A stretch of DNA of 64,000 bases from Mesorhizobium sp. SARCC-RB16n (GTDB lineage Bacteria > Pseudomonadota > Alphaproteobacteria > Rhizobiales > Rhizobiaceae), in NCBI RefSeq assembly GCF_008520305.1, contig NZ_ML703270.1, forward strand, positions 1 through 64,000, written 5' to 3'. Positions 31,735 to 46,501 of the stretch are shown piece after piece. The number at the start of each line of letters is the position of its first letter. Position 1 is the first letter of the stretch. A program made the position numbers and the translations under genes. A model generated the notes under the pieces. That model was not told where the DNA came from, did no database searches, and saw only the letters and a list, made by a program, of their open reading frames with translations.

Positions 31735-32196
31735 TCATAGAAAAGGCGCGATCGACAGCCGCGCCATGATGGCCGGCAAGGCCGTGGCGGCGTTGCGCTC
31801 GGCAAGGTCGATACGCGGCACCGGGCAGCCTGCGACCGGCTCACTGAGTTCCTCCTGGAAACGGGCCATTTCCGCCTTCGGCACAAGCCGCACATGCAGG
31901 TCGATTACGCCGCCCGGCTCGAATGGCAGCGGGCGCGGCATGAACCCAGGCACCTCGGCGAGACCAGCGATGGTCGGCGGCACGCGGCAGACCAGCCGCC
32001 CGGCGTGGGCCGAGGCAAGCAGCCTGTCGTCGCCGATCAGCCGCGAGAACAGCGCGCGCGCCCGGCAGTGGTCCAGGAGTGTCAGCGCCAGTGTCGTCTT
32101 GCCGGCGCCGGACGCCCCGGTGATGAGAACGCCGCGATCGCCGATCAGGATCGCGGTTCCGTGGATGTTTTCAGGCTGCGCGGCGGCTTCGGGCAT
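31735..32196 (-). CDS. hprK: Short HPr kinase/phosphorylase
   Basis: A 153-residue HprK catalytic domain without the N-terminal domain found in Firmicutes, as is usual in alphaproteobacteria. Walker A is ITGASGAGKTTLALTLL, and the HprK signature covers the LIGDDRLLAS and AEVPGFMPRPL parts. It phosphorylates the HPr regulatory Ser. It is the first gene after chvG, with 19 bases between them, tying the two-component system to the PTS. Confidence 0.93.
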   Translation of the reverse strand: MPEAAAQPENIHGTAILIGDRGVLITGASGAGKTTLALTLLDHCRARALFSRLIGDDRLLASAHAGRLVCRVPPTIAGLAEVPGFMPRPLPFEPGGVIDLHVRLVPKAEMARFQEELSEPVAGCPVPRIDLAERNAATALPAIMARLSIAPFL

Positions 32197-32215
32197 GGTT
32201 ATGTTCGAGCCAAGG

Positions 32216-34000
32216 TCATCCCTCGGCCGGCAGCGTCACGACGAAGCGTGCGCCCTTGATCTCGCCAGGCTTGGTGCCGGGAATGTTTTCGGCGGTCAGC
32301 GTACCGCCATGGGCCTCGACGATCTGCCTGGAGATCGACAGGCCAAGGCCCGAATTCTGGCCGAACGCCTCGCCGGCGGGCCGGTCGGTATAGAAGCGTT
32401 CGAAGATGCGGTCGATGTTGTCGGCGCGGATGCCGGGACCATTGTCGTCGACGGTCAGGATGTTGAACTTGCCGGCGCGCGCCAGCGACAGGCTGATGTG
32501 GCCATGGTCCTCGGGCACAAAGGAGCGGGCGTTCTCGATCAAATTGGTGATGACCTGGCCGATGCGCAGGTCATGACCGACGACGACATAGCCCTTGGCG
32601 CCCTGCGGTAGCTTGGCAACCTTGAGCTCGATCTCGACCGCCTTCTTGTTGCGCGTCGCTTCACGCGAAACAGCGACGAGGTCGGTAACGAATTTCTTCA
32701 GGTCGACGGTTCCCGCGTCCTCGCGCGCCAGTTCGGCGTCGAGACGGGAGGCATCGGAAATGTCGGTGATGAGGCGGTCCAGCCGTTTGACGTCATGCTG
32801 GATGATCTCCATCAGACGCGCGCGAGAGGTGTCATTCTTCGCCAGGGGCAGTGTTTCGACAGCGCTGCGTAGCGACGTCAACGGGTTCTTCAGCTCATGC
32901 GAAACATCGGCGGCGAAGCTCTCGATCGCCTCGATGCGCGCGTAGAGCGCGTTGGTCATGTCGCGCACAGCGATCGACAGATTGCCTATCTCGTCCTGGC
33001 GGTCGGAAAAATCCGGGATTTCTTCGCGGCTCTTGACGCCGCGCCTGACCCGTACGGCAGCGGCGGACAGACGCCGCAGCGGATTGGCGATGGTCGAAGC
33101 CAAGAGCATCGACAGGATGGCCGTGACGAGGGCCGCGATGCCGAAGACGCGCAGGATCGCCTTGCGTTCGGCGGCGACGATCTTGTCGATATCGCCGCCT
33201 TCGGTCGACAGCATCAGCACACCGAGAACGGCGCGAAAACGCTGGATCGGCACCGCCACCGAGACGATCTGCTCACCCTGTTCCGAGACGCGCACGATGG
33301 TCGACGGGCTGCCGGTCAGCGCCTTGACCACTTCCGGATAGGCGGCACCATTGCCGCCCGGCTGCTCGTGATAGACCGGCAGGTCGGTATTGCGGAAGAA
33401 GTCGAAGATGAATTTCTGGATGCTCTCGACAAGGTCGGGCTCTTCCTCGTCGACCGGCGGCAGGTCGTAGCGCAGGATCTGGCCGCGCGAATAGAGATGG
33501 CGCGAATCGAGCAGCAGGTTGGCGTCGCGGTCATAGATGCGGGCGCGAGTACGGGTCGGCGAGATCAGCCGCCGCAGCACCGGCGCCACGCGCTCGGGAT
33601 TGATCGGAAAATCCAGATTGTCGAGCTGGTCCGAGCCCGGCCCCAGGCTTTCGCCGGCCTGCAGCTCGAGCAGCTTTTCCGGGTCGATGCTGATCGAATC
33701 CGTCTCGACCGTCGCCGACGCCGCGATGGCGCCGGCGATGATCTCGCCCTGCGTCATCAAGCTTTCGACACGCGCGTCGATCAGCCCGTCGCGGAAGGTG
33801 TTGAGGTAGAGAATGCCGGTGACCAGGACAGCCAGGCCGGCAAGGTTGAGGAAGAGGATACGCCGCGTCAGGCTGGAAAAGATATGGTGGCCGAGGAAAC
33901 GGCGCATCGGCACCGTGAATTTCGACACGAAGGACGGCATGATGCGCGACGGCCGCCTGGCAGCGCCCGCCGGTCTTGTTCGCTGTGCTTCCACTGCCAT
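32216..34000 (-). CDS. chvG: ChvG sensor histidine kinase
   Basis: A membrane sensor kinase homologous to ChvG/ExoS, which responds to acid or envelope stress and governs exopolysaccharide, motility and host entry genes. One N-terminal TM segment (residues about 45-65), a long periplasmic domain, a second TM near residue 300, then HAMP. The phospho-accepting His is in FAADVSHELKNPLTSLRSA; ATP motifs are NLIENARSFVPE, DDNGPGIRADNIDRIFERF and GLGLSISRQIVEAHGG. I used the ATG at 34000 (594 residues, matching known ChvG proteins), with GGGAG upstream. Confidence 0.94.
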   Translation of the reverse strand: MAVEAQRTRPAGAARRPSRIMPSFVSKFTVPMRRFLGHHIFSSLTRRILFLNLAGLAVLVTGILYLNTFRDGLIDARVESLMTQGEIIAGAIAASATVETDSISIDPEKLLELQAGESLGPGSDQLDNLDFPINPERVAPVLRRLISPTRTRARIYDRDANLLLDSRHLYSRGQILRYDLPPVDEEEPDLVESIQKFIFDFFRNTDLPVYHEQPGGNGAAYPEVVKALTGSPSTIVRVSEQGEQIVSVAVPIQRFRAVLGVLMLSTEGGDIDKIVAAERKAILRVFGIAALVTAILSMLLASTIANPLRRLSAAAVRVRRGVKSREEIPDFSDRQDEIGNLSIAVRDMTNALYARIEAIESFAADVSHELKNPLTSLRSAVETLPLAKNDTSRARLMEIIQHDVKRLDRLITDISDASRLDAELAREDAGTVDLKKFVTDLVAVSREATRNKKAVEIELKVAKLPQGAKGYVVVGHDLRIGQVITNLIENARSFVPEDHGHISLSLARAGKFNILTVDDNGPGIRADNIDRIFERFYTDRPAGEAFGQNSGLGLSISRQIVEAHGGTLTAENIPGTKPGEIKGARFVVTLPAEG

Positions 34001-34083
34001 CGAATAGCAGCTCCCGCTAGTCCTTGGTTTGACGCATGTCGCAGTCCCGAGCCCAGGACCGCTTTTGGTCGACATACATCAAA

Positions 34084-34785
34084 TTATGCTTCGCGGAACC
34101 GGTATCCGACTCCGTAAAGGGTTTCGATCATCTCGAAGTCGTCATCGACGGCCTTGAACTTCTTGCGCAGCCGCTTGATGTGGCTGTCGATCGTGCGGTC
34201 ATCGACATAGACCTGCTCATCATAAGCCGAATCCATCAGCGCATCACGGCTTTTTACCACGCCGGGGCGTTGCGCCAGCGAATGCAGGATCAGGAACTCG
34301 GTGACGGTGAGCGTCACCGGTTCGCCCTTCCAGGTGCAGGTATGGCGTTCCTGGTCCATGACGAGCTGGCCGCGCTCGAGCGAGCGGGCCTGCTGGCTCG
34401 GCGCTTTTGCCGCAGCCTCGCGGGCGCTGGCCCGGCGCAGCACGGCGCGCACCCGTTCGACCAGCAGGCGCTGCGAGAACGGTTTGCGGATGAAGTCGTC
34501 GGCGCCCATCTTGAGACCGAACAATTCATCGATCTCGTCGTCCTTGGAGGTCAGGAAGATCACCGGCAGATCGGATTTCTGGCGCATCCGGCGCAGAAGC
34601 TCCATGCCGTCCATGCGCGGCATCTTGATGTCGAGGATGGCGAGATTCGGCGGCCGGGCCGCCAGGCCTTCCAGCGCGGACGCACCATCCGTATAGGTCT
34701 CGACGCGATACCCCTCGGATTCGAGGGCGATCGACACCGACGTCAGAATGTTGCGGTCGTCATCGACAAGCGCGATTGTTGCCAT
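34084..34785 (-). CDS. chvI: ChvI response regulator
   Basis: A 233-residue OmpR-type regulator. The receiver has [14 protein letters not shown], the phospho-accepting Asp in [17 protein letters not shown], and the conserved Lys in [10 protein letters not shown]. The winged helix starts near residue 140 with [19 protein letters not shown]. The ATG at 34785 ([10 protein letters not shown]) has GGGAG upstream; a longer form from 34803 is less likely. With ChvG, 83 bases downstream, it forms a conserved rhizobial system next to pckA. Confidence 0.96.
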
Positions 34786-35128
34786 TTCAAGCGGCTCCCT
34801 CATGAGCTGTCCCTTCTGTCGTAAGAGAAGGGGCTTTTGCAGGACAAATTAGGTACAAAATGTGGCATAGGCCTTGTCCGCTGTCACGAGCGGCGTGCCG
34901 GCGGCCACAATCCTACCTCGCCGAGGATTGGACGAACGAGCACCGCCAATCCTTTGGGCAACCACCAAACTTTTTGCATATATAAACGATTTAAACAACT
35001 TTCAAAATATTTAAATCGATTAAAGATTTGATATCATTTGGCTTTTCTGGTTCTGACCATCTATCCTGCTTAGTAGGTTGCCGGAAATATGCCGGCACAG
35101 ATGCGGCAAATCTTGAGAAGGGTCACCA
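34786..35128. promoter_or_regulatory. AT-rich divergent promoter region of chvI and pckA
   Basis: This 343-base gap holds no gene. Its right part (about 34965-35045) is far more AT-rich than the rest of the window and contains CGATTTAAA (34987-34995) and TTTAAATCG (35010-35018), perfect inverted arms 14 bases apart. The left part nearer chvI is GC-rich with no clear element. The AT-rich part probably drives pckA, a gene induced on gluconeogenic carbon; the regulator is not evident. Confidence 0.55.
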
Positions 35129-41166: not shown

Positions 41167-42651
41167 TCAGCGCAGCGGCGAAAAGGTCGCCGAGACCAGC
41201 TCGAACGGCAAGGCGCCATAGGCGGCGACCGTCGCCTGATCATCCCATTGGCGGAATTGTCGCGACGGCCGCGCTTCCAGCGTCAAGGCATGCTGACGGC
41301 CGTCGACCATGACCTTGCCGCGGAAGCGCAGCACCCTTTCCCCACCGGATCGACTGATGGCCATGGCACGCAGGCGCGCGACGTGGTCGTCATCCCGGTT
41401 GATCTCCATTTCGATGCGGCGCCGGACCGGCGGAATGCTGATCCTGACCACGATGTCCAGCATCATCTCCCCCACCGTTGGCGGGCACGGTATGGTCTGC
41501 GAGAAGACCAGCGGCGACGGTCCCTCCAGCGGCTCGCGTGGGCCTGGCCTGCCACGCCATGCCTTGCCTCGCCACCCCTTGGCGGCTGGCTCTTGCCGCA
41601 GCCGGCCGCTCTTGCGTCTCAGCCGCAACTGCTTGGCAAAGCCGCGCGACAGCCAGATCAGCCTGCCGAAATCGGTTCGCGGCTTGGCCTGCAGCACCGC
41701 TGACCAGCGCGAAAGGCCGGTGCGGTCGGCCATGTCAAGAACGTGCGCCAGCACCCTGTCCGGCACCGCCACGCCAATATCGAGCGCAAGGTAGGAGAGC
41801 GCCACCGCCGCGGCAACGGCAAGGCCACGCCTGGCGACCACATCGAGGAACACATCCCAGTCGACGTCGCCGGCGCGAATGGCCACTGCGCAATCGACCA
41901 GCCAATCGCTATGCGTGTGGGCGTCGAGCCCGCCATGCGCGATGGCGAGCGCGATGCGGTCCGCAGGCGACGGCACCAGCACGCCGACACCGCTGAATTC
42001 GGCCGCCGCCGCCCGCCGCCAGATCGCCTGGTCGTCCTCGTCGCTTTGCTGCGAACCGTCATAGGCAAGCTGGTGCAGATCGATGTCGCCATAATTGCCC
42101 TTGAAGAAGTTCATCGAGCGCAGCGAGGCCAGTCTTGTCCTCAGATATTGCGGGCTCACCCCGGTGGCGATCTGCCAGTCGCGGTCGCGTAGCACGTCGA
42201 ACGCCGTTCGCATGTCCTGCGGCCGCACCAATATGTCGATGTCGTGCGCCACCCGGCCACGCTGCGCCGATGCGTTCAAGGCGATGCGGCTGGCCCCCTT
42301 GATCAGCATCACCAGGCATCCGGCGCCCGTCATCGCCTGCAGCGTCGGTTCGGCCTCGCGCATCGCCATGCGCGACTTGGTCCACAGCATCTTTTGCAGG
42401 CCGACAAGACGTGGATAGGCGGAATGGCCGGCCAATTTCCGGCCGAACCGGTCGCAGATGGCGGCCAGCAGCCGATGCTCCCTGAAGGAAACGAGATCGA
42501 TGTCGTTGGCGCTCAGCCACTGCATCGCTTGACCGGCGGCCGCGTCGTCGTCGGCAAGAAGCGCGGCCTTGAGCAACTGGTCGAGCCCGCCCGTCGGCCA
42601 GGACCAGCCATAGTCCGGGAAACGTCGGCTGATGCGGCGGATGCGCGCCAT
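41167..42651 (-). CDS. NTP_transf_5-type nucleotidyltransferase family protein
   Basis: 494 residues. The central region MLIKGASRIALNASAQRGRVAHDIDILVRPQDM contains the GS-like KGAS and the DIDILV acidic pair of pol-beta-type nucleotidyltransferases; this and the downstream GDIDLHQLAYDGSQ fit the uncharacterised NTP_transf_5 family. The C-terminal ~130 residues, after a basic low-complexity linker (GWRGKAWRGRPGPREP), look like a separate beta-rich domain. This family recurs with PqqD-like and HprK-like genes. Its start shares one base with the stop of the preceding glycosyltransferase (TGATG), so it is the last gene of that operon. Confidence 0.77.
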   Translation of the reverse strand: MARIRRISRRFPDYGWSWPTGGLDQLLKAALLADDDAAAGQAMQWLSANDIDLVSFREHRLLAAICDRFGRKLAGHSAYPRLVGLQKMLWTKSRMAMREAEPTLQAMTGAGCLVMLIKGASRIALNASAQRGRVAHDIDILVRPQDMRTAFDVLRDRDWQIATGVSPQYLRTRLASLRSMNFFKGNYGDIDLHQLAYDGSQQSDEDDQAIWRRAAAAEFSGVGVLVPSPADRIALAIAHGGLDAHTHSDWLVDCAVAIRAGDVDWDVFLDVVARRGLAVAAAVALSYLALDIGVAVPDRVLAHVLDMADRTGLSRWSAVLQAKPRTDFGRLIWLSRGFAKQLRLRRKSGRLRQEPAAKGWRGKAWRGRPGPREPLEGPSPLVFSQTIPCPPTVGEMMLDIVVRISIPPVRRRIEMEINRDDDHVARLRAMAISRSGGERVLRFRGKVMVDGRQHALTLEARPSRQFRQWDDQATVAAYGALPFELVSATFSPLR

Positions 42652-43328
42652 CAGCCCGCGCCGGCCTTGTTCCGGGCCCGTCGCAGCATGGCCAGCCGCG
42701 CCACTTCGAGGTAGCCGCGGTCGCGCGTCGCATCACGCCCGTAGGACAGGCTGCCGGGCCTGATGCGGCGCAGCGCCAGGACCTCCTCCATCATGTCGAG
42801 GACAAGGCCCGCCTCGCGTGCCCGCGCGATCCAGTCGATCATTTCGCCGCGGCCGCCCGGCGGATCGACGACTGGTCCGACGGTCTCGGCTACCTCGCGC
42901 CGGATCAGCATCGTGGTCCGCGACCAGCCGGGCACGGTGGCGTCCTCGGGTGCGTCCGGCCGGTCATTGCGGAAGTTTCGCACATGGCAGAAGACGCCCG
43001 ATGTGCCGGGCAATCCTCGCAGATAGGCAAGCTGACCCTCTATCTTGGTCGGCAGCCACAGATCGTCGGCGTCGAGCGTTGCGATGAACGGCGTCGACAG
43101 CGCGGCGATGCCTCTGGTCGTGGCGCTGCCCGGTCCGGCATTTGCCTGGCGCAGCAATTGCAGCGGCAGGTCCGTTCCGCCGATCGCCGCGGCGAGATCG
43201 TCGGTTGATCCGTCGTCGACGATCACCACCAGTTCCGGGCGCACCGTCTGCGCCGCGACCGATCGCAGCGTCTCGGCAATGGTGCCGCTGGCGTTGAAGG
43301 CCGGTATGACGACGCCGTATCGGTCCAT
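42651..43328 (-). CDS. Family-2 glycosyltransferase
   Basis: A 225-residue GT-A glycosyltransferase. The nucleotide-binding start is VVIPAFNASGTIAETLRSVAAQ, then VIVDDGSTDD, and the DXD-like metal motif lies in ATLDADDLWLP. It lacks a membrane segment. The start at 43328 forms an ATGA overlap with the preceding glycosyltransferase. It is less similar to the two upstream glycosyltransferases than those are to each other. Donor and acceptor are unknown. Confidence 0.85.
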   Translation of the reverse strand: MDRYGVVIPAFNASGTIAETLRSVAAQTVRPELVVIVDDGSTDDLAAAIGGTDLPLQLLRQANAGPGSATTRGIAALSTPFIATLDADDLWLPTKIEGQLAYLRGLPGTSGVFCHVRNFRNDRPDAPEDATVPGWSRTTMLIRREVAETVGPVVDPPGGRGEMIDWIARAREAGLVLDMMEEVLALRRIRPGSLSYGRDATRDRGYLEVARLAMLRRARNKAGAG

Positions 43329-44080
43329 CACAGGGAACGCCAATCTGAAAGTTTGTCGAGCTCGAAGATACCTTCGATCGGGCGCAGCGACGGGTCGGCC
43401 TTGCGCCGTTTCATGGATTTATAGATAGCGCGCAGGAATTCCCGCGACTGGACGCCCTCCTGCCTGGTCATGTTGCCCGCATGCCGTCTGTAATAGAGCG
43501 CGACCGTGTCGGGAAGCACGTAACTGGGGCCGCTCTCAAAACCGCGCAGCAGGTAGTCGGTGTCTTCGGCCTGGACGAAGTCCTCGTCGAAATCGCCTAT
43601 CCGCGCGACGAGCCGGCGCGCGAAGATCGCCGCCGACAGATGAATGCCACGAACCGTGATGCTGTTGCTGTCCGCCGTCGGCTCCAGGGTCCCGTCGTCG
43701 ATCTTGTCGACCAGCATCATCCTCGAATAGGTCAGATCGAGATCGGGTTTCTTCCGGAAAAGCTCGACATCGGCCTTGAAGCGTCCGGCTGGCGAGATGT
43801 CGTCCGAGTCGAGGAACGACACGAGTTCCGCCTCGGGCTTGAGCTGCCTGAGCCCGCTGTTGCGCGCCCGTGTCACTCCCATGTTCTCCTGTTGGAACAG
43901 CCGGATGCAGGAATGATCGTCCATGATGGCGCGCACGGCCTCGGCCGAGCCATCGGTCGAGCCGTCATCGATGACGATGATGTCGAGGTCTGCGGCGTCG
44001 CCTTGCCTGATCAACGAGCGCAGCGCAGCGCCGACATAGGCCTCACGATTGTAGACGGGCATGATCACGCTCAGTCTCAT
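43328..44080 (-). CDS. Family-2 glycosyltransferase, paralogue B
   Basis: A 250-residue GT-A enzyme: VIMPVYNREAYVGAALRSLI, IIVIDDGSTDGSAE, metal motif FLDSDDISPAGRF, and catalytic-base region QAEDTDYLLRGFE. It aligns almost without gaps with the next upstream glycosyltransferase, with well over half of positions identical by eye, so the two arose by tandem duplication. The start MRLSVIMPVYNRE at 44080 is chosen by comparison with its twin. The 55-base gap to the twin holds nothing recognisable. Confidence 0.87.
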   Translation of the reverse strand: MRLSVIMPVYNREAYVGAALRSLIRQGDAADLDIIVIDDGSTDGSAEAVRAIMDDHSCIRLFQQENMGVTRARNSGLRQLKPEAELVSFLDSDDISPAGRFKADVELFRKKPDLDLTYSRMMLVDKIDDGTLEPTADSNSITVRGIHLSAAIFARRLVARIGDFDEDFVQAEDTDYLLRGFESGPSYVLPDTVALYYRRHAGNMTRQEGVQSREFLRAIYKSMKRRKADPSLRPIEGIFELDKLSDWRSL

Positions 44081-44135
44081 CCTCGACCTCGCGGGCGCTG
44101 CGGCACCATCCGATTTGATCGCGAGATAACGTGCA

Positions 44136-44888
44136 TCAAAGCACCCGCCAGTCGGGCGAGCTCTTGAGCTCGAAAATGCCGGGGATCTCACGAAGGGACG
44201 GGTTGGCCCTGCGTCGCCGAATCGATTTGTGGATCGCCCGCATGTGGTTGCGAAGCCGGCCCTCGTGCTCCTTGGTGACATTGCCGGCATGGCGCCTGTA
44301 GTAGATCGCGACGGTCTCCAGAAGGCGGTAATTCGGACCCGTTTCGAAGATGCGCAGCAGATAGTCAGTGTCCTCGCCCTGATCGAATTCCTCGTCGAAA
44401 TAGCCGATGCGATCGACAAGCGCCCGGCTGAACAGGCCGGTGCTCATCGAAATTCCGCGCAGCGTTACAGTGCGGCTGCCCGCTACAGGCTCCAGCGTGT
44501 TATCGTCTATCTGCTCGGCCAGGGTCATCAGGGAGTAGGTCAGGTCAAGGCCCGGGTCGGCCTCGAAGCAAGCCAGATCCGTCTTGAAGCGTCCGGCAAG
44601 CGAGATGTCGTCGGAATCGAGGAACGACACAAACCCGGCATCCGGCGGCAACTGCCTCAGCCCGGCATTGCGCGCCTTCGCGACACCCATATTGGGTTGC
44701 AGGAACAGGCGGATGCAGGACGCCTCGCGCATCGTTGACGTTATGGCCTCCACCGAGGCGTCCGTGGAGCCGTCGTCGATGACGATGATGTCGAAGTCGG
44801 CGTCAGCGCGCTGCCTGATCAACGAGCGCAGCGCAGCGCCGACATAGCGCTCGCGATTGTAGACAGGCAGGATCACGCTGAGCTTCAC
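44136..44888 (-). CDS. Family-2 glycosyltransferase, paralogue A
   Basis: A 250-residue GT-A enzyme, starting at a GTG (44888) as MKLSVILPVYNRERYVGAAL. Metal motif FLDSDDISLAGRF and DQGEDTDYLLRIFETGP match its twin downstream. The C-terminal LREIPGIFELKSSPDWRVL is nearly the same in both, a tail that is not a general glycosyltransferase feature. GTGA overlap with the HprK-like gene indicates translational coupling, so it very likely acts in the same pathway as the PqqD/HprK-like pair. Confidence 0.87.
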   Translation of the reverse strand: MKLSVILPVYNRERYVGAALRSLIRQRADADFDIIVIDDGSTDASVEAITSTMREASCIRLFLQPNMGVAKARNAGLRQLPPDAGFVSFLDSDDISLAGRFKTDLACFEADPGLDLTYSLMTLAEQIDDNTLEPVAGSRTVTLRGISMSTGLFSRALVDRIGYFDEEFDQGEDTDYLLRIFETGPNYRLLETVAIYYRRHAGNVTKEHEGRLRNHMRAIHKSIRRRRANPSLREIPGIFELKSSPDWRVL

Positions 44889-45934
44889 CAGGCGCCCCGT
44901 GTCAGGAAATCCTCGATCGTGCCGGCGATCTCTGTCGGGTCGGTGCCGAGGGACAAACGAAAGCAGGGCAGGTGGCGCGTCAATTCGCTGAAGAAGCGAA
45001 AGCCGCTCTCGCGCTCGCCCGGCATCTGTGCGGTGCCGGACGGCGCCAAGGCAATCATGGCGTCCCTGCGCGACACCGGCATGATCGAACTTGCTCCGCC
45101 TCCGCTGATATGTGGCACCACCAGCGCAACGATGTCCAGCATCGCGGGCACCGGCCCAGGCGCGATGTCATCAATGTGAAACGTGTGCTTGCCCTGCCAG
45201 TTCAGCGGGCCCTGCGCCGTTAGCCGCTGTTGCAGGCCCAGTCGCGTGAAACCTTGCGCATCCTGCTTCAGCGTCGAGAAAAGGGGCCGCGCGGCCACGC
45301 CTCCGGCGAGATCGATCAGCACATAGTCGTCGCCGACGCTGTCGAGCCCGTTGAGCAGGCCGGCTGCGACGGTGCCGGATTTCCCTGCCCCGCCCGAGCC
45401 GGCAAGCAGGATACCCTTGCCGTCGACGCCGAGCGTGCCGGCATGGGTCAGCCGCATGCCGCGCGCGGCATATTCCCAATGCAGGAAGGCGCGCAACGGT
45501 GCTCCCGGCTCCCATGGCGGAAAGGCCTCGGCCGAGGCCATCAGCTGCACGCCAATGCGACGTTGCGGATCGTAGATCTGCCAGAAATCCAGGTCGTGGA
45601 AATAGTGCCCGCGCAACCCGGCCTCGGCGAGCCGTTTGGCAAAACCGTGCTCGGTGAAATGCGCATCGCCCCAATGCGCTGGCTCGGGGATGCTGTCGAT
45701 GCCGGGATGAGCGATGAAGATGCGGCACGTGGACGGTTCCGGTTGATCGTGACCGGCCTCGACAAATGCATGGCTCAGTGCATCGGCAAGCACACCATGG
45801 CCGAGATGCGCGGTCAGTTCCAGACGGGGCAGGCGAACCTTTCGTGTGGTCGGATAGCGCGCGGTCGCGCCTTCGGCGGCGGCGATGAGATACCGGGCGT
45901 AGTCGGGTAAGGTTTCGAGCGTGACGCGCGGCAT
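44885..45934 (-). CDS. HprK-like serine-kinase-fold protein (HprK-related kinase A type)
   Basis: 349 residues. The C-terminal half has an HPr-kinase-like P-loop, GILLAGSGGAGKSGTVAAGLL, followed by VGDDYVLIDLAGGV (the Walker-B-like acidic pair). The N-terminal half is specific to this group (RIFIAHPGIDSIPEPAHWGD). It is not a housekeeping HprK: a normal hprK exists in the PTS block. Such genes accompany PqqD-family proteins in sets that annotation pipelines call HPr-rel-A systems, of unknown function; related kinases phosphorylate lasso peptides. Start at 45934 (MPRVTLETLPDYARYL), 34 bases after the PqqD-like gene. Confidence 0.8.
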   Translation of the reverse strand: MPRVTLETLPDYARYLIAAAEGATARYPTTRKVRLPRLELTAHLGHGVLADALSHAFVEAGHDQPEPSTCRIFIAHPGIDSIPEPAHWGDAHFTEHGFAKRLAEAGLRGHYFHDLDFWQIYDPQRRIGVQLMASAEAFPPWEPGAPLRAFLHWEYAARGMRLTHAGTLGVDGKGILLAGSGGAGKSGTVAAGLLNGLDSVGDDYVLIDLAGGVAARPLFSTLKQDAQGFTRLGLQQRLTAQGPLNWQGKHTFHIDDIAPGPVPAMLDIVALVVPHISGGGASSIMPVSRRDAMIALAPSGTAQMPGERESGFRFFSELTRHLPCFRLSLGTDPTEIAGTIEDFLTRGAW

Positions 45935-45968
45935 CAAGCGCCTTCCATCACGGGCTGCGCCCGGCCGG

Positions 45969-46400
45969 TCAGGAAGCCTGCTTGACCGCCGGCCAGCCAA
46001 GAGGCTCTTCGACCTCATGGATGGGATCAACGACGATCAGGTCGGCGAGGTCGTCGTGAATGCTCACATTGAGCGGCTCGTTCGTGGCGGCAAGCTCGGC
46101 AGGCAATTCGCCTGGCAATGGCTGCGCAGTCGTTTCCAGACGCACCAGCAAACCCAATTCGAGCAATTGCGATATGAAGTGTTCGAGTTCGGCCAGGGCT
46201 ATTGTCGAGCCGCCCGCGGCCAGCCCGACCAGAGCTCGGGCATCTACTCCGGACGAAAGCGCCTGCCAGACCTTGCTGCCGGAATCGGAGAAGCCGAAAT
46301 ATTTGCCGTTCGCAAGGTTGAGCACCACGGCTTCGCCATCGAAGGATTCGAAAACGATATCCCGGCTCGCAACCGCATAGGCATGGGAAACATGCTTCAT
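45969..46400 (-). CDS. PqqD-like peptide-binding (RRE) protein
   Basis: 143 residues. The first ~90 form a PqqD-like winged helix: YAVASRDIVFESFDGEAVVLNLANGKYFGFSDSG and then a helical region up to ISQLLELGLLV. PqqD domains bind leader peptides of ribosomally made, modified peptides. The ~50-residue tail is acidic and ends DPIHEVEEPLGWPAVKQAS. It is the first recognised gene of the HprK-like/glycosyltransferase operon. Its ATG is shared as ATGA with the stop of a short upstream frame, a likely peptide substrate. Confidence 0.82.
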   Translation of the reverse strand: MKHVSHAYAVASRDIVFESFDGEAVVLNLANGKYFGFSDSGSKVWQALSSGVDARALVGLAAGGSTIALAELEHFISQLLELGLLVRLETTAQPLPGELPAELAATNEPLNVSIHDDLADLIVVDPIHEVEEPLGWPAVKQAS

Positions 46401-46501
46401 TGTTGCCCCGCTTTACATTCCTGCCCGCCAGCAGGACCGCATCCACCAACAACGCCTGTAAACGCTCGGTTCTTCGTTGGCAAGGCAAGCTGTGCCGACA
46501 A
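46397..46501 (-). CDS. Candidate substrate peptide for the PqqD/HprK-like system
   Basis: A 34-codon frame from a TTG at 46501, ending TGVVGGCGPAGGQECKAGQQ, with two Cys and a Gly-rich C-terminus after a short N-terminal segment (SAQLALPTKNRAF). Its TGA overlaps the PqqD-like ATG (ATGA). It fills the 132-base gap after the ferredoxin-reductase gene. No ATG/GTG start exists in this gap; the frame continues back into the reductase gene, where ATGs near 46590 could give a longer form. The Shine-Dalgarno is weak. Being a precursor is inference from position and composition. Confidence 0.4.
   Translation of the reverse strand: MSAQLALPTKNRAFTGVVGGCGPAGGQECKAGQQ

Follow-up and report, generated by a model that had tools for sequence, protein, structure and literature searches.

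A PqqD-like protein with a conserved C-terminal arm in a kinase, glycosyltransferase and nucleotidyltransferase operon of Mesorhizobium

On what does an operon act that encodes a PqqD-like protein, an HprK-like kinase, three glycosyltransferases and a nucleotidyltransferase-like protein? The stretch of 64,000 nucleotides of Mesorhizobium sp. SARCC-RB16n analysed here (the window) raises this question through six genes on its minus strand. These specify a PqqD-like protein of the RRE type with a C-terminal arm (143 aa, 45969–46400), an HprK-like P-loop kinase (349 aa, 44885–45934), the family-2 glycosyltransferases GT2-A (250 aa, 44136–44888), GT2-B (250 aa, a tandem relative of A, 43328–44080) and GT2-C (225 aa, 42651–43328), and an NTP_transf_5 nucleotidyltransferase-like protein (494 aa, 41167–42651). 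PqqD and the kinase are separated by 34 bp, the kinase and GT2-A overlap in GTGA, GT2-A and GT2-B lie 55 bp apart, and each of the two remaining junctions is a TGATG. The initial annotation had described six tightly packed minus-strand genes, and this is confirmed: all six are present, separated by overlaps or short gaps, and the operon is a real observation.

The PqqD protein exceeds its Pfam cut-off (27.4 against 23.4), as do the three glycosyltransferases (PF00535; 78.1, 87.4 and 76.3 bits for A, B and C against 23.3) and the NTP_transf_5 protein (PF14907, residues 88–288; 75.3 bits against a gathering cut-off of 31.2). Among the rows compared, the NTP_transf_5 motifs HDID[IL]LV and D[IV]DLHQ were found in 42/43 and 43/43, respectively. 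Approximately 100 residues at the C-terminus of this protein are unassigned.

Assignment of the operon kinase to the HprK-like proteins is based upon fold and motifs and not upon a Pfam cut-off. The kinase falls short of Hpr_kinase_C [PF07475, 15.7 vs 33.3] and of the HPr kinase model TIGR00679 [19.7 vs 240], a kinase profile gave only weak matches to HPr kinases in the PDB [E 0.3–0.48], and the kinases of two distant relatives had no Pfam match at 0.001. A fold search with the predicted model, however, matched the HPr kinase catalytic fold, complete with the P-loop, His and DD of the HprK/PEPCK superfamily; in our fold searches the listed chains alone were considered, and the absence of a family there is no evidence. 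The separate housekeeping hprK reported near 31.7 kb does exist as a short gene [PF07475, 38.0 vs 33.3].

The identification of the locus with the HPr-rel-A gene sets could not be upheld. Those sets (TIGR04352) involve similar parts, an HprK-related kinase and a PqqD-like protein, but the operon kinase reaches only 27.3 bits against a cut-off of 200, and on cut-offs we reject membership. At E 0.1 the matches listed for the PqqD protein were two lasso models, lasso_PqqD_Bac [31 vs 80] and lasso_PqqD_Strm [14.9 vs 70]; the HPr-rel-A PqqD model, which presumably exists, was not among them.

Based upon Pfam profiles and the list of open reading frames, none of the six genes encodes a precursor, protease, cyclase or exporter, in agreement with the earlier statement that a lasso-type protease, a cyclase and a transporter are missing; all six match other families, the kinase by its fold, and none is, by Pfam, a radical SAM maturase of the type found with PQQ and mycofactocin. 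The peptide substrate that had been suggested to lie upstream fared differently. Within the 160 bp preceding the PqqD gene the window has no ORF of at least 12 aa that both starts and stops there, nor is any short ORF common to the 13 relatives displayed. What is found instead is a promoter-like block, CTTGCCA-N14-GTTTACAG (46456–46484, minus strand), 55 bp before the PqqD start codon, which presumably functions as a promoter. Because the short ORFs differ among these relatives while the promoter-like pattern recurs in 27 of 42 rows (the window and 41 loci, 53–76 bp before the start codon), we reject an upstream short ORF as the substrate; this applies to short ORFs, longer overlapping ones not having been taken one by one. 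A functional tie to the upstream gbcAB genes is likewise rejected as not general, since the Aminobacter and several Mesorhizobium loci have no gbcAB within the flank.

What is chiefly new concerns the PqqD protein, in which an RRE fold of the lasso type precedes a conserved C-terminal arm. The initial annotation overlooked this arm, which we consider the best candidate for the "peptide". The RRE (winged-helix) domain is predicted by the model and fold search to occupy approximately residues 1–90 (46131–46400, minus strand). By both model and profile it is closest to the lasso protein TbiB1, a lasso B1 bound to its leader, and the peptide-binding character claimed for the protein is thereby supported. 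Behind a variable linker, alignments and dN/dS place the arm at residues 108–143 (45972–46079, minus strand); dN/dS and the tail alignment mark residues 125–141 (DPIHEVEEPLGWPAVKQ, 45978–46028, minus strand) as a core-like end. The arm consists of a leader-like stretch and, behind it, a DP[IV]H[DE]V…GWP end. The dN/dS of the core-like end (0.030, 42 sequences) is the lowest of six PqqD regions; among the others, two parts of the RRE give 0.092 and 0.327, the linker 0.349 and the ten N-terminal residues 0.364. Its D, P, H, G, W and P do not vary across 15 tails selected from 47, and no Ser, Thr or Tyr is conserved in the arm. AlphaFold2 places a strand at residues 112–115, inside the leader-like half, with residues 122–143 below pLDDT 50.

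The operon recurs in 42 fetched loci, the titles of which are nearly all Mesorhizobium or Aminobacter. The kinase, GT2-C and NTP transferase occur in all 42 and PqqD in 41; one locus (L042) starts inside the kinase gene, the end of which alone is visible there. One of the two A/B-type GT2 copies is absent in 11 of the 42, which otherwise have the same six genes. Reordered, the set also occurs in further genomes sampled at the level of order, class and phylum, and a cyanobacterial plasmid carries a PqqD with the same arm along with an NTP transferase, a kinase and a GT2. Co-occurrence better than chance had been set as a test of the proposal, and it was found: in the order-wide sample of 199 genomes (PqqD profile threshold 1e-6) all 12 PqqD-positive genomes were also kinase-positive, against 3 of the 187 others [Fisher p 8e-17, a significance inflated by kinship].

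A further 33 arm-bearing PqqD genes were located in 26 genomes. With profiles extended by hits from those same loci, and in stretches some of which are short, GT2 genes were found nearby at 33/33, the kinase at 28/33 and the NTP transferase at 24/33. The kinase is absent from the stretch at L078, L120, L123, L125 and L132, with no strong kinase near, and the NTP transferase from nine; at L132 PqqD and GT2 are the sole operon members within 20 kb. The association with glycosyltransferases, which was also to be checked, therefore holds at every locus examined. Single relatives possess further glycosyltransferases, an asparagine-synthase-like protein or a phosphodiesterase, and in one (L071) an ABC exporter is fused to a GT2. 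In Mantel tests of protein distances at the 21 of these 33 loci having all four proteins, signals were obtained for kinase/NTP transferase (0.42), kinase/RRE (0.27) and GT/RRE (0.26), those for kinase/GT, NTP transferase/GT and NTP transferase/RRE not being significant; since they are weak and mixed, strict co-evolution is not claimed. PqqD, HprK, GT2 and NTP transferase constitute a real co-occurring unit.

In 21 of the 33 further arms a motif resembling lasso leaders lies at fixed spacing, and 11 contain the published form [Y/W]xxPx[LVIAFY]; 500 shuffles gave a mean of 0.08 and a maximum of 2, some of the 33 rows being close relatives. By eye, the motif is absent from the window's own arm and from the 42-locus set. 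Behind the leader-like half the end is of the IH..GWP type in 28, DPPLP in four and of another kind in one. At 17/33 loci the core-like end lacks Ser, Thr and Tyr altogether, which disfavours ordinary Ser phosphorylation there.

No free-standing arm peptides were found in samples of 385 and 398 genomes, by searches that scored part of the first-look candidates (e.g. 19 of 31) and may have missed weak free copies. Arm matches occurred in 11 genomes (13 places) of the first sample and eight (8 places) of the second. All 17 believable places (16 distinct, G011 being in both samples) are PqqD fusions. Four low-scoring places [G289, G366, G917 and G779; E 0.0003–0.0096] were judged from their ORFs to be chance, two of these ORFs having weak PqqD-profile scores [0.0015 and 0.003].

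Searches were also begun from the kinase. A profile made from Mesorhizobium and Aminobacter alone gave 18 places, 16 of them at E 1e-13 or better. These 16 are all near an arm-bearing PqqD, one arm (G172/L074) being without GWP; 15 are in genomes which PqqD had already revealed, G088 being new. The two weak places have no PqqD within the stretch. With a wider profile the strong kinases again lay beside arm-bearing PqqD genes (8/8 and 5/5 places), a result which is not independent, the loci being known beforehand, several inside the profile, and five or seven candidates scored per genome. Among 23 weaker kinases 16 had a PqqD-like domain nearby, and six more, all resembling one Mesorhizobium locus type, were all accompanied by a PqqD; none of the 22 PqqD domains seen beside these other HprK-like kinases bears the arm.

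Among the titles and abstract openings listed in literature searches none described this gene set, and the strings DPIHDV, DPIHEV, DPVHDV and DPVHEV occurred in no paper text, figures and supplements lying outside the search. The operon shares a PqqD-type chaperone with the PQQ and mycofactocin systems, the latter combining a GT2 (MftF) with a short conserved peptide end; unlike them it has no radical SAM enzyme among its six genes, and we know of no fusion of peptide to chaperone in either.

The closest known kinds are the paeninodin-type clusters and the LPP family described in 2026. The paeninodin and pseudomycoidin lasso clusters (PadeK, PsmK, PsmN; PMC9266682) likewise have a PqqD-type B1 fold, an HprK-like kinase and a nucleotidyltransferase-like protein, and in pseudomycoidin the kinase and the NTP transferase together add phosphate and sugar to a lasso peptide. 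The operon has the B1-type RRE protein but no transporter; a B2 transglutaminase-like protease and an asparagine-synthase-like cyclase are absent from it and from the operons of related loci, no separate precursor gene is seen in the 160 bp ahead of the PqqD gene, whether in the window or in the 13 relatives displayed, and its arm has no conserved C-terminal Ser. In the LPP clusters of the Bacillota (PMC13381572), too, a discrete RRE is accompanied by an HprK-like kinase and an NTP transferase, with no lasso cyclase; the clusters frequently lie in polysaccharide loci, and their leader motif is YxxPx. The kinase LppK, which is HprK-like, phosphorylates a linear peptide associated with an RRE. 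The LPP clusters encode their precursor separately and have a protease of the SpI type and an exporter resembling MsbA, none of which is among our six genes, whereas the operon has GT2 genes at every locus examined and a conserved arm on its RRE.

We tentatively favour, at clearly less than even probability, the view that the operon encodes a peptide- or carrier-directed phospho-glycosylation machine in which the self-presented PqqD arm is modified or primes a glycan. The PqqD protein, on its lasso-type RRE base, would hold out a peptide of its own, the arm, whose leader-like half would sit in the leader-binding groove of the same molecule, probably in cis, exposing the core-like DP[IV]H[DE]V...GWP end, the putative acceptor, to the partner enzymes. 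The kinase, the NTP_transf_5 protein and the GT2s might then act in turn, presumably in that order, on the end so held or on a group that it bears, and the product would be a modified peptide or peptide-primed glycan retained on its carrier. Several observations argue for self-presentation: the gene set kept in 42 loci, the lasso B1-like fold, an arm with a leader-like motif, two end types, a strand at 112–115 and strong constraint, the association of arm and gene set at 33 further loci and on the cyanobacterial plasmid, the lack of any other peptide gene conserved upstream in the rows examined, and the precedents of pseudomycoidin and LppK. Against it count the 17 ends without Ser, Thr or Tyr, the studied kinases of this kind acting on Ser (PMC9266682, PMC13381572), and LppN, for which the LPP study detected no activity (PMC13381572). 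The operon contains neither a protease nor an exporter that would set a product free, which likewise weighs against it. The missing leader-like motif in the arms of the window and the 42 loci, and the arm-bearing loci without a kinase or NTP transferase, also speak against it, and the near-invariant end seems unlike the cores of secreted natural products.

Because the arm has no conserved Ser, Thr or Tyr acceptor, it is nearly as likely that the arm is unmodified and serves for docking or gating, a pseudo-leader closing the RRE groove while the DPIH..GWP end recruits GT2, kinase or NTP transferase to another acceptor. The extreme constraint on the end, the absence of a protease and the constant company of GT2, down to the PqqD and GT2 pair of L132, are consistent with this. 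A docking motif, however, need not resemble an RRE-binding leader, as 21 of the 33 arms do, nor come with alternative conserved ends of two types, and a closed groove would leave the RRE no peptide-binding role. Returning to self-presentation, we consider it rather unlikely that the system is RiPP-like in the full sense, with one protein as both precursor and recognition element: an RRE whose C-terminal arm supplies leader and near-invariant core, is offered in cis to kinase, NTP transferase and glycosyltransferases, and acts as a reusable peptide primer or carrier for a phospho-glycan.

Improbable is a linear RiPP of the classical kind, LPP-like and phosphorylated or glycosylated, with its precursor gene elsewhere in the genome, bound in trans by PqqD with the arm as an accessory. 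The LPP family does share the core of RRE, kinase and NTP transferase without a cyclase (PMC13381572), and among the genomes of 18 of the 42 loci, lasso B2-type proteases (Transglut_core3) were found outside the operon in 14. Such a protease was not found in the other four (three Aminobacter and one metagenome bin) and therefore seems not to be required; moreover, no precursor is conserved upstream in the rows examined, the other lasso-type loci inspected have their own arm-less PqqD, and in the scored candidates of the two genome samples all believable arm-like peptides were PqqD fusions. More improbable still is a small-molecule pathway of sugar activation and transfer for a surface glycan with PqqD merely a scaffold, for although kinase, nucleotidyltransferase and glycosyltransferase is the usual order of sugar activation and single relatives add glycosyltransferases, an asparagine-synthase-like protein or a phosphodiesterase, NTP_transf_5 is to our knowledge not a sugar-1-phosphate nucleotidyltransferase family, and arm and RRE would be left unexplained. 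PsmN, the relative of NTP_transf_5 that has been studied, takes a phosphopeptide as its substrate (PMC9266682).

The gene set may thus represent an undescribed route to modified peptides or peptide-anchored sugars. In a recent RRE survey, 21% of PF05402-matching proteins exceed the size of a plain RRE without other Pfam annotation (PMC12710340); for one such oversized group the arm-bearing PqqD family supplies a sequence element that can be defined, a gene context that recurs and a role that can be tested. Were the arm the substrate, a precursor would be fused to its own recognition domain, and RiPP chemistry would be connected with the building of glycans, in rhizobia as in other bacteria. 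Were it to serve for docking, it would remain informative about the way in which kinase, NTP transferase and glycosyltransferases are brought together by an RRE.

The operon comprises six co-directional genes on the minus strand (window 46400 to 41167), specifying in order a PqqD-like protein (143 aa), an HprK-like kinase (349 aa), the family-2 glycosyltransferases (GT2) GT2-A and GT2-B (250 aa each), GT2-C (225 aa) and an NTP_transf_5 protein (494 aa). The successive joints are 34 bp, GTGA, 55 bp, TGATG and TGATG, which bears out the tight packing described in the initial annotation. The upstream neighbours best match gbcB and gbcA, subunits of glycine betaine monooxygenase, with scores below the curated cut-offs; downstream lie a 520-aa gene without a family match and, on the opposite strand, a GT87 gene. 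The C-terminal ~100 residues of the NTP_transf_5 protein (41167–41469) are conserved after a variable linker, have no Pfam match and include ARPSRQFR, which is retained across the Mesorhizobium and Aminobacter rows shown. At 31735–34803 a short HPr kinase C-terminal protein (153 aa) has as neighbours a response regulator and a sensor kinase that contains a stimulus-sensing domain, the kind of housekeeping arrangement usual in Alphaproteobacteria.

A candidate peptide substrate had been proposed upstream of the operon. In the window no ORF of at least 12 codons has its start and stop inside the 160 bp before PqqD, and among the 13 relatives printed the short upstream ORFs are dissimilar and vary by locus; a separate upstream peptide gene was therefore rejected. 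Instead, 27 of 42 rows share a block, CTTGCCA-N14-GTTTACAG, located 53–76 bp ahead of the PqqD start codon and resembling a promoter or operator.

The window kinase retrieved 42 loci, by title nearly all Mesorhizobium or Aminobacter, the closest being from Mesorhizobium with kinase identities of up to 93%. Gene order (PqqD, kinase, one or two A/B-type GT2, GT2-C, NTP transferase) is kept across this set, with three GT2 genes in 31 loci and two in 11; gbcAB upstream is not general. When the window is included, the kinase retains its motifs in all but one of the 43 rows, the exception being L042, a locus which begins within the kinase gene. The NTP-transferase motifs are present in 42/43 and 43/43 rows; GT2-C has the exact LDADD string in 39/43. 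One locus (L032) has a shortened kinase and an interrupted NTP transferase, and another (L021) has the latter interrupted close to a contig end. Among 199 genomes sampled across the order the PqqD profile matches 12 and the kinase profile 15, all 12 being in common. By hand count, 65 of the 146 genomes in the genus sample carry a long PqqD (68 places, E < 1e-30); the next matches to this profile, from 1e-10 on, span the domain only.

The PqqD protein consists of its domain, a variable linker and a C-terminal extension, the arm (residues 108–143), which is present in 42/42 aligned rows. Across 42 sequences dN/dS is 0.030 for the last conserved stretch of the arm (residues 125–141), 0.153 for the leader-like stretch (108–124), 0.092 and 0.327 for two parts of the lasso-type peptide-binding domain (RRE), 0.349 for the linker and 0.364 for the first ten residues. 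AlphaFold2 predicts a strand at residues 112–115, within the leader-like half, and gives the final 22 residues a pLDDT < 50.

PqqD, arm or kinase profiles yielded 33 further arm-bearing loci in 26 genomes, six of them from the Mesorhizobium genus sample, including one (L135) of the window's own type. Their arm ends read D[PI][IV]H..GWP in 28 cases (counting L127, with DI instead of DP), DPPLP in four and DPIH without GWP in one. Remoter relatives retain the end: in 15 tails, hand-chosen from 47 with the DPPLP type excluded, the residues D, P, H, G, W and P never vary. Directly before the arm end, at fixed spacing, [YFW]xxPx[LVIAFYM] occurs in 21/33 loci; when the upstream residues were shuffled 500 times, it arose in 0.08 on average and never in more than 2. 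Judged by eye, this leader motif is met neither by the window's arm nor by those of the 42-locus set. The published lasso-RRE form, given in the accessible text of PMC13381572 as [Y/W]xxPx[L/V/I/A/F/Y], is found in 11/33 arms. A second arm type, ...RYxDMxxLxALDPPLP, is borne by PqqD at L078, L118, L119 and L120; the last three each have two NTP_transf_5-like matches and one gene family in common, whose L119 member matches a phosphodiesterase family.

As far as examined, the arm belongs to the PqqD/kinase/GT2/NTP-transferase set. Co-occurrence in relatives, which the initial annotation had put forward as a check, holds for GT2 (all 42 loci and 33/33 further ones) and fails for a conserved short upstream ORF. 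Of the 33 loci, 28 showed the kinase and 24 the NTP transferase (L135 yielded no match to the latter), in stretches spanning 3.7–20 kb, some of which stop at a contig end, and with profiles extended by hits from the same loci. When samples of 385 and 398 genomes were searched with the arm alone, the believable matches fell at 17 places, 17/17 being PqqD fusions. A kinase-first search, its profile built from the Mesorhizobium/Aminobacter set only and its genomes all but one known beforehand through PqqD, found an arm-bearing PqqD near 16/16 places with E 1e-13 or better and near 0/2 weaker ones. PqqD domains beside weaker-scoring HprK-like kinases bore the arm in 0/16 and 0/6 cases in two sets. 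A plasmid of the cyanobacterium Crinalium carries PqqD, NTP transferase, kinase and GT2 together, the PqqD having FEKPMLEKFTDMEDLLLLDPIHEVDVEAGWP close to its C-terminal end. At L071:11629–13995 a single in-cluster ORF combines an ABC exporter with a GT2 domain, the sole Pfam-confirmed exporter beside an arm-bearing PqqD.

Mesorhizobium ciceri WSM1271 has a canonical lasso cluster (L063:7613–11666) composed of a 50-aa precursor, PqqD, a transglutaminase-like protease (B2), cyclase and HprK-like kinase, with an NTP_transf_5-like gene (by eye) on the opposite strand; it lies ~180 kb away from the PqqD/kinase/GT2/NTP-transferase operon. In contrast to the arm-bearing proteins, its 104-aa PqqD is without the arm, and the leader, YETPSLTVHGSIETITQG, resides on the separate precursor. 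Another Mesorhizobium locus (L062:7851–9546) has a trio of B2, a 95-aa PqqD and HprK-like kinase adjoining an NTP_transf_5-like gene, and L064 and L065 are similar; no precursor or cyclase was seen at these three. The product of a nearby ~795-aa gene resembles, by eye, a polysaccharide chain-length protein. Single ORFs at L145:874–2127 and L157:1360–2565 match both the PqqD-like domain and the HprK-like kinase, as a fusion would, and overlap or adjoin an NTP_transf_5-matching ORF.

According to the accessible text of PMC9266682, PsmK acts as a lasso-peptide kinase, and one or two hexoses are attached at the residue it phosphorylates, by PsmN unless a host enzyme is responsible. In the linear polyphosphorylated peptide (LPP) system an RRE binds the leader of a linear precursor, which LppK phosphorylates, and deletion of lppN gave no detectable change (PMC13381572, accessible text). 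No precursor gene adjoins the present operon, and the RRE bears its own leader-like and core-like arm. We prefer the reading that the PqqD protein may present its own arm, which would occupy the RRE groove and offer its end to the kinase, NTP transferase and GT2. Against this, 17/33 arm ends are without Ser/Thr/Tyr, and a Ser kinase would therefore need a different target; nor does the operon hold a gene to release a product. Nearly as good is the suggestion that the arm is a docking or gating element. A precursor encoded elsewhere in the genome is less likely, as is a plain sugar-activation pathway.

Each part of the operon belongs to a known kind, and among described systems the paeninodin-type lasso clusters and LPP come nearest. 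In rumen bacteria, according to the accessible text of PMC7533575, glycosyltransferase genes occur in the vicinity of lasso clusters with an HPr kinase and a nucleotidyltransferase; that of the RRE surveys notes RRE-glycosyltransferase fusions (PMC7470986; PMC12710340) and points to long, unannotated PF05402 proteins as unexplored (PMC12710340). Unlike the paeninodin-type clusters and LPP, the operon has GT2 in every locus, an RRE extended by a conserved arm, and no precursor, protease or exporter, the lack of a lasso-type protease and transporter having been correctly called at the outset. This arrangement did not turn up in the literature searched, including the accessible parts of PMC7533575 and PMC7470986, and it is the combination that appears to be new.
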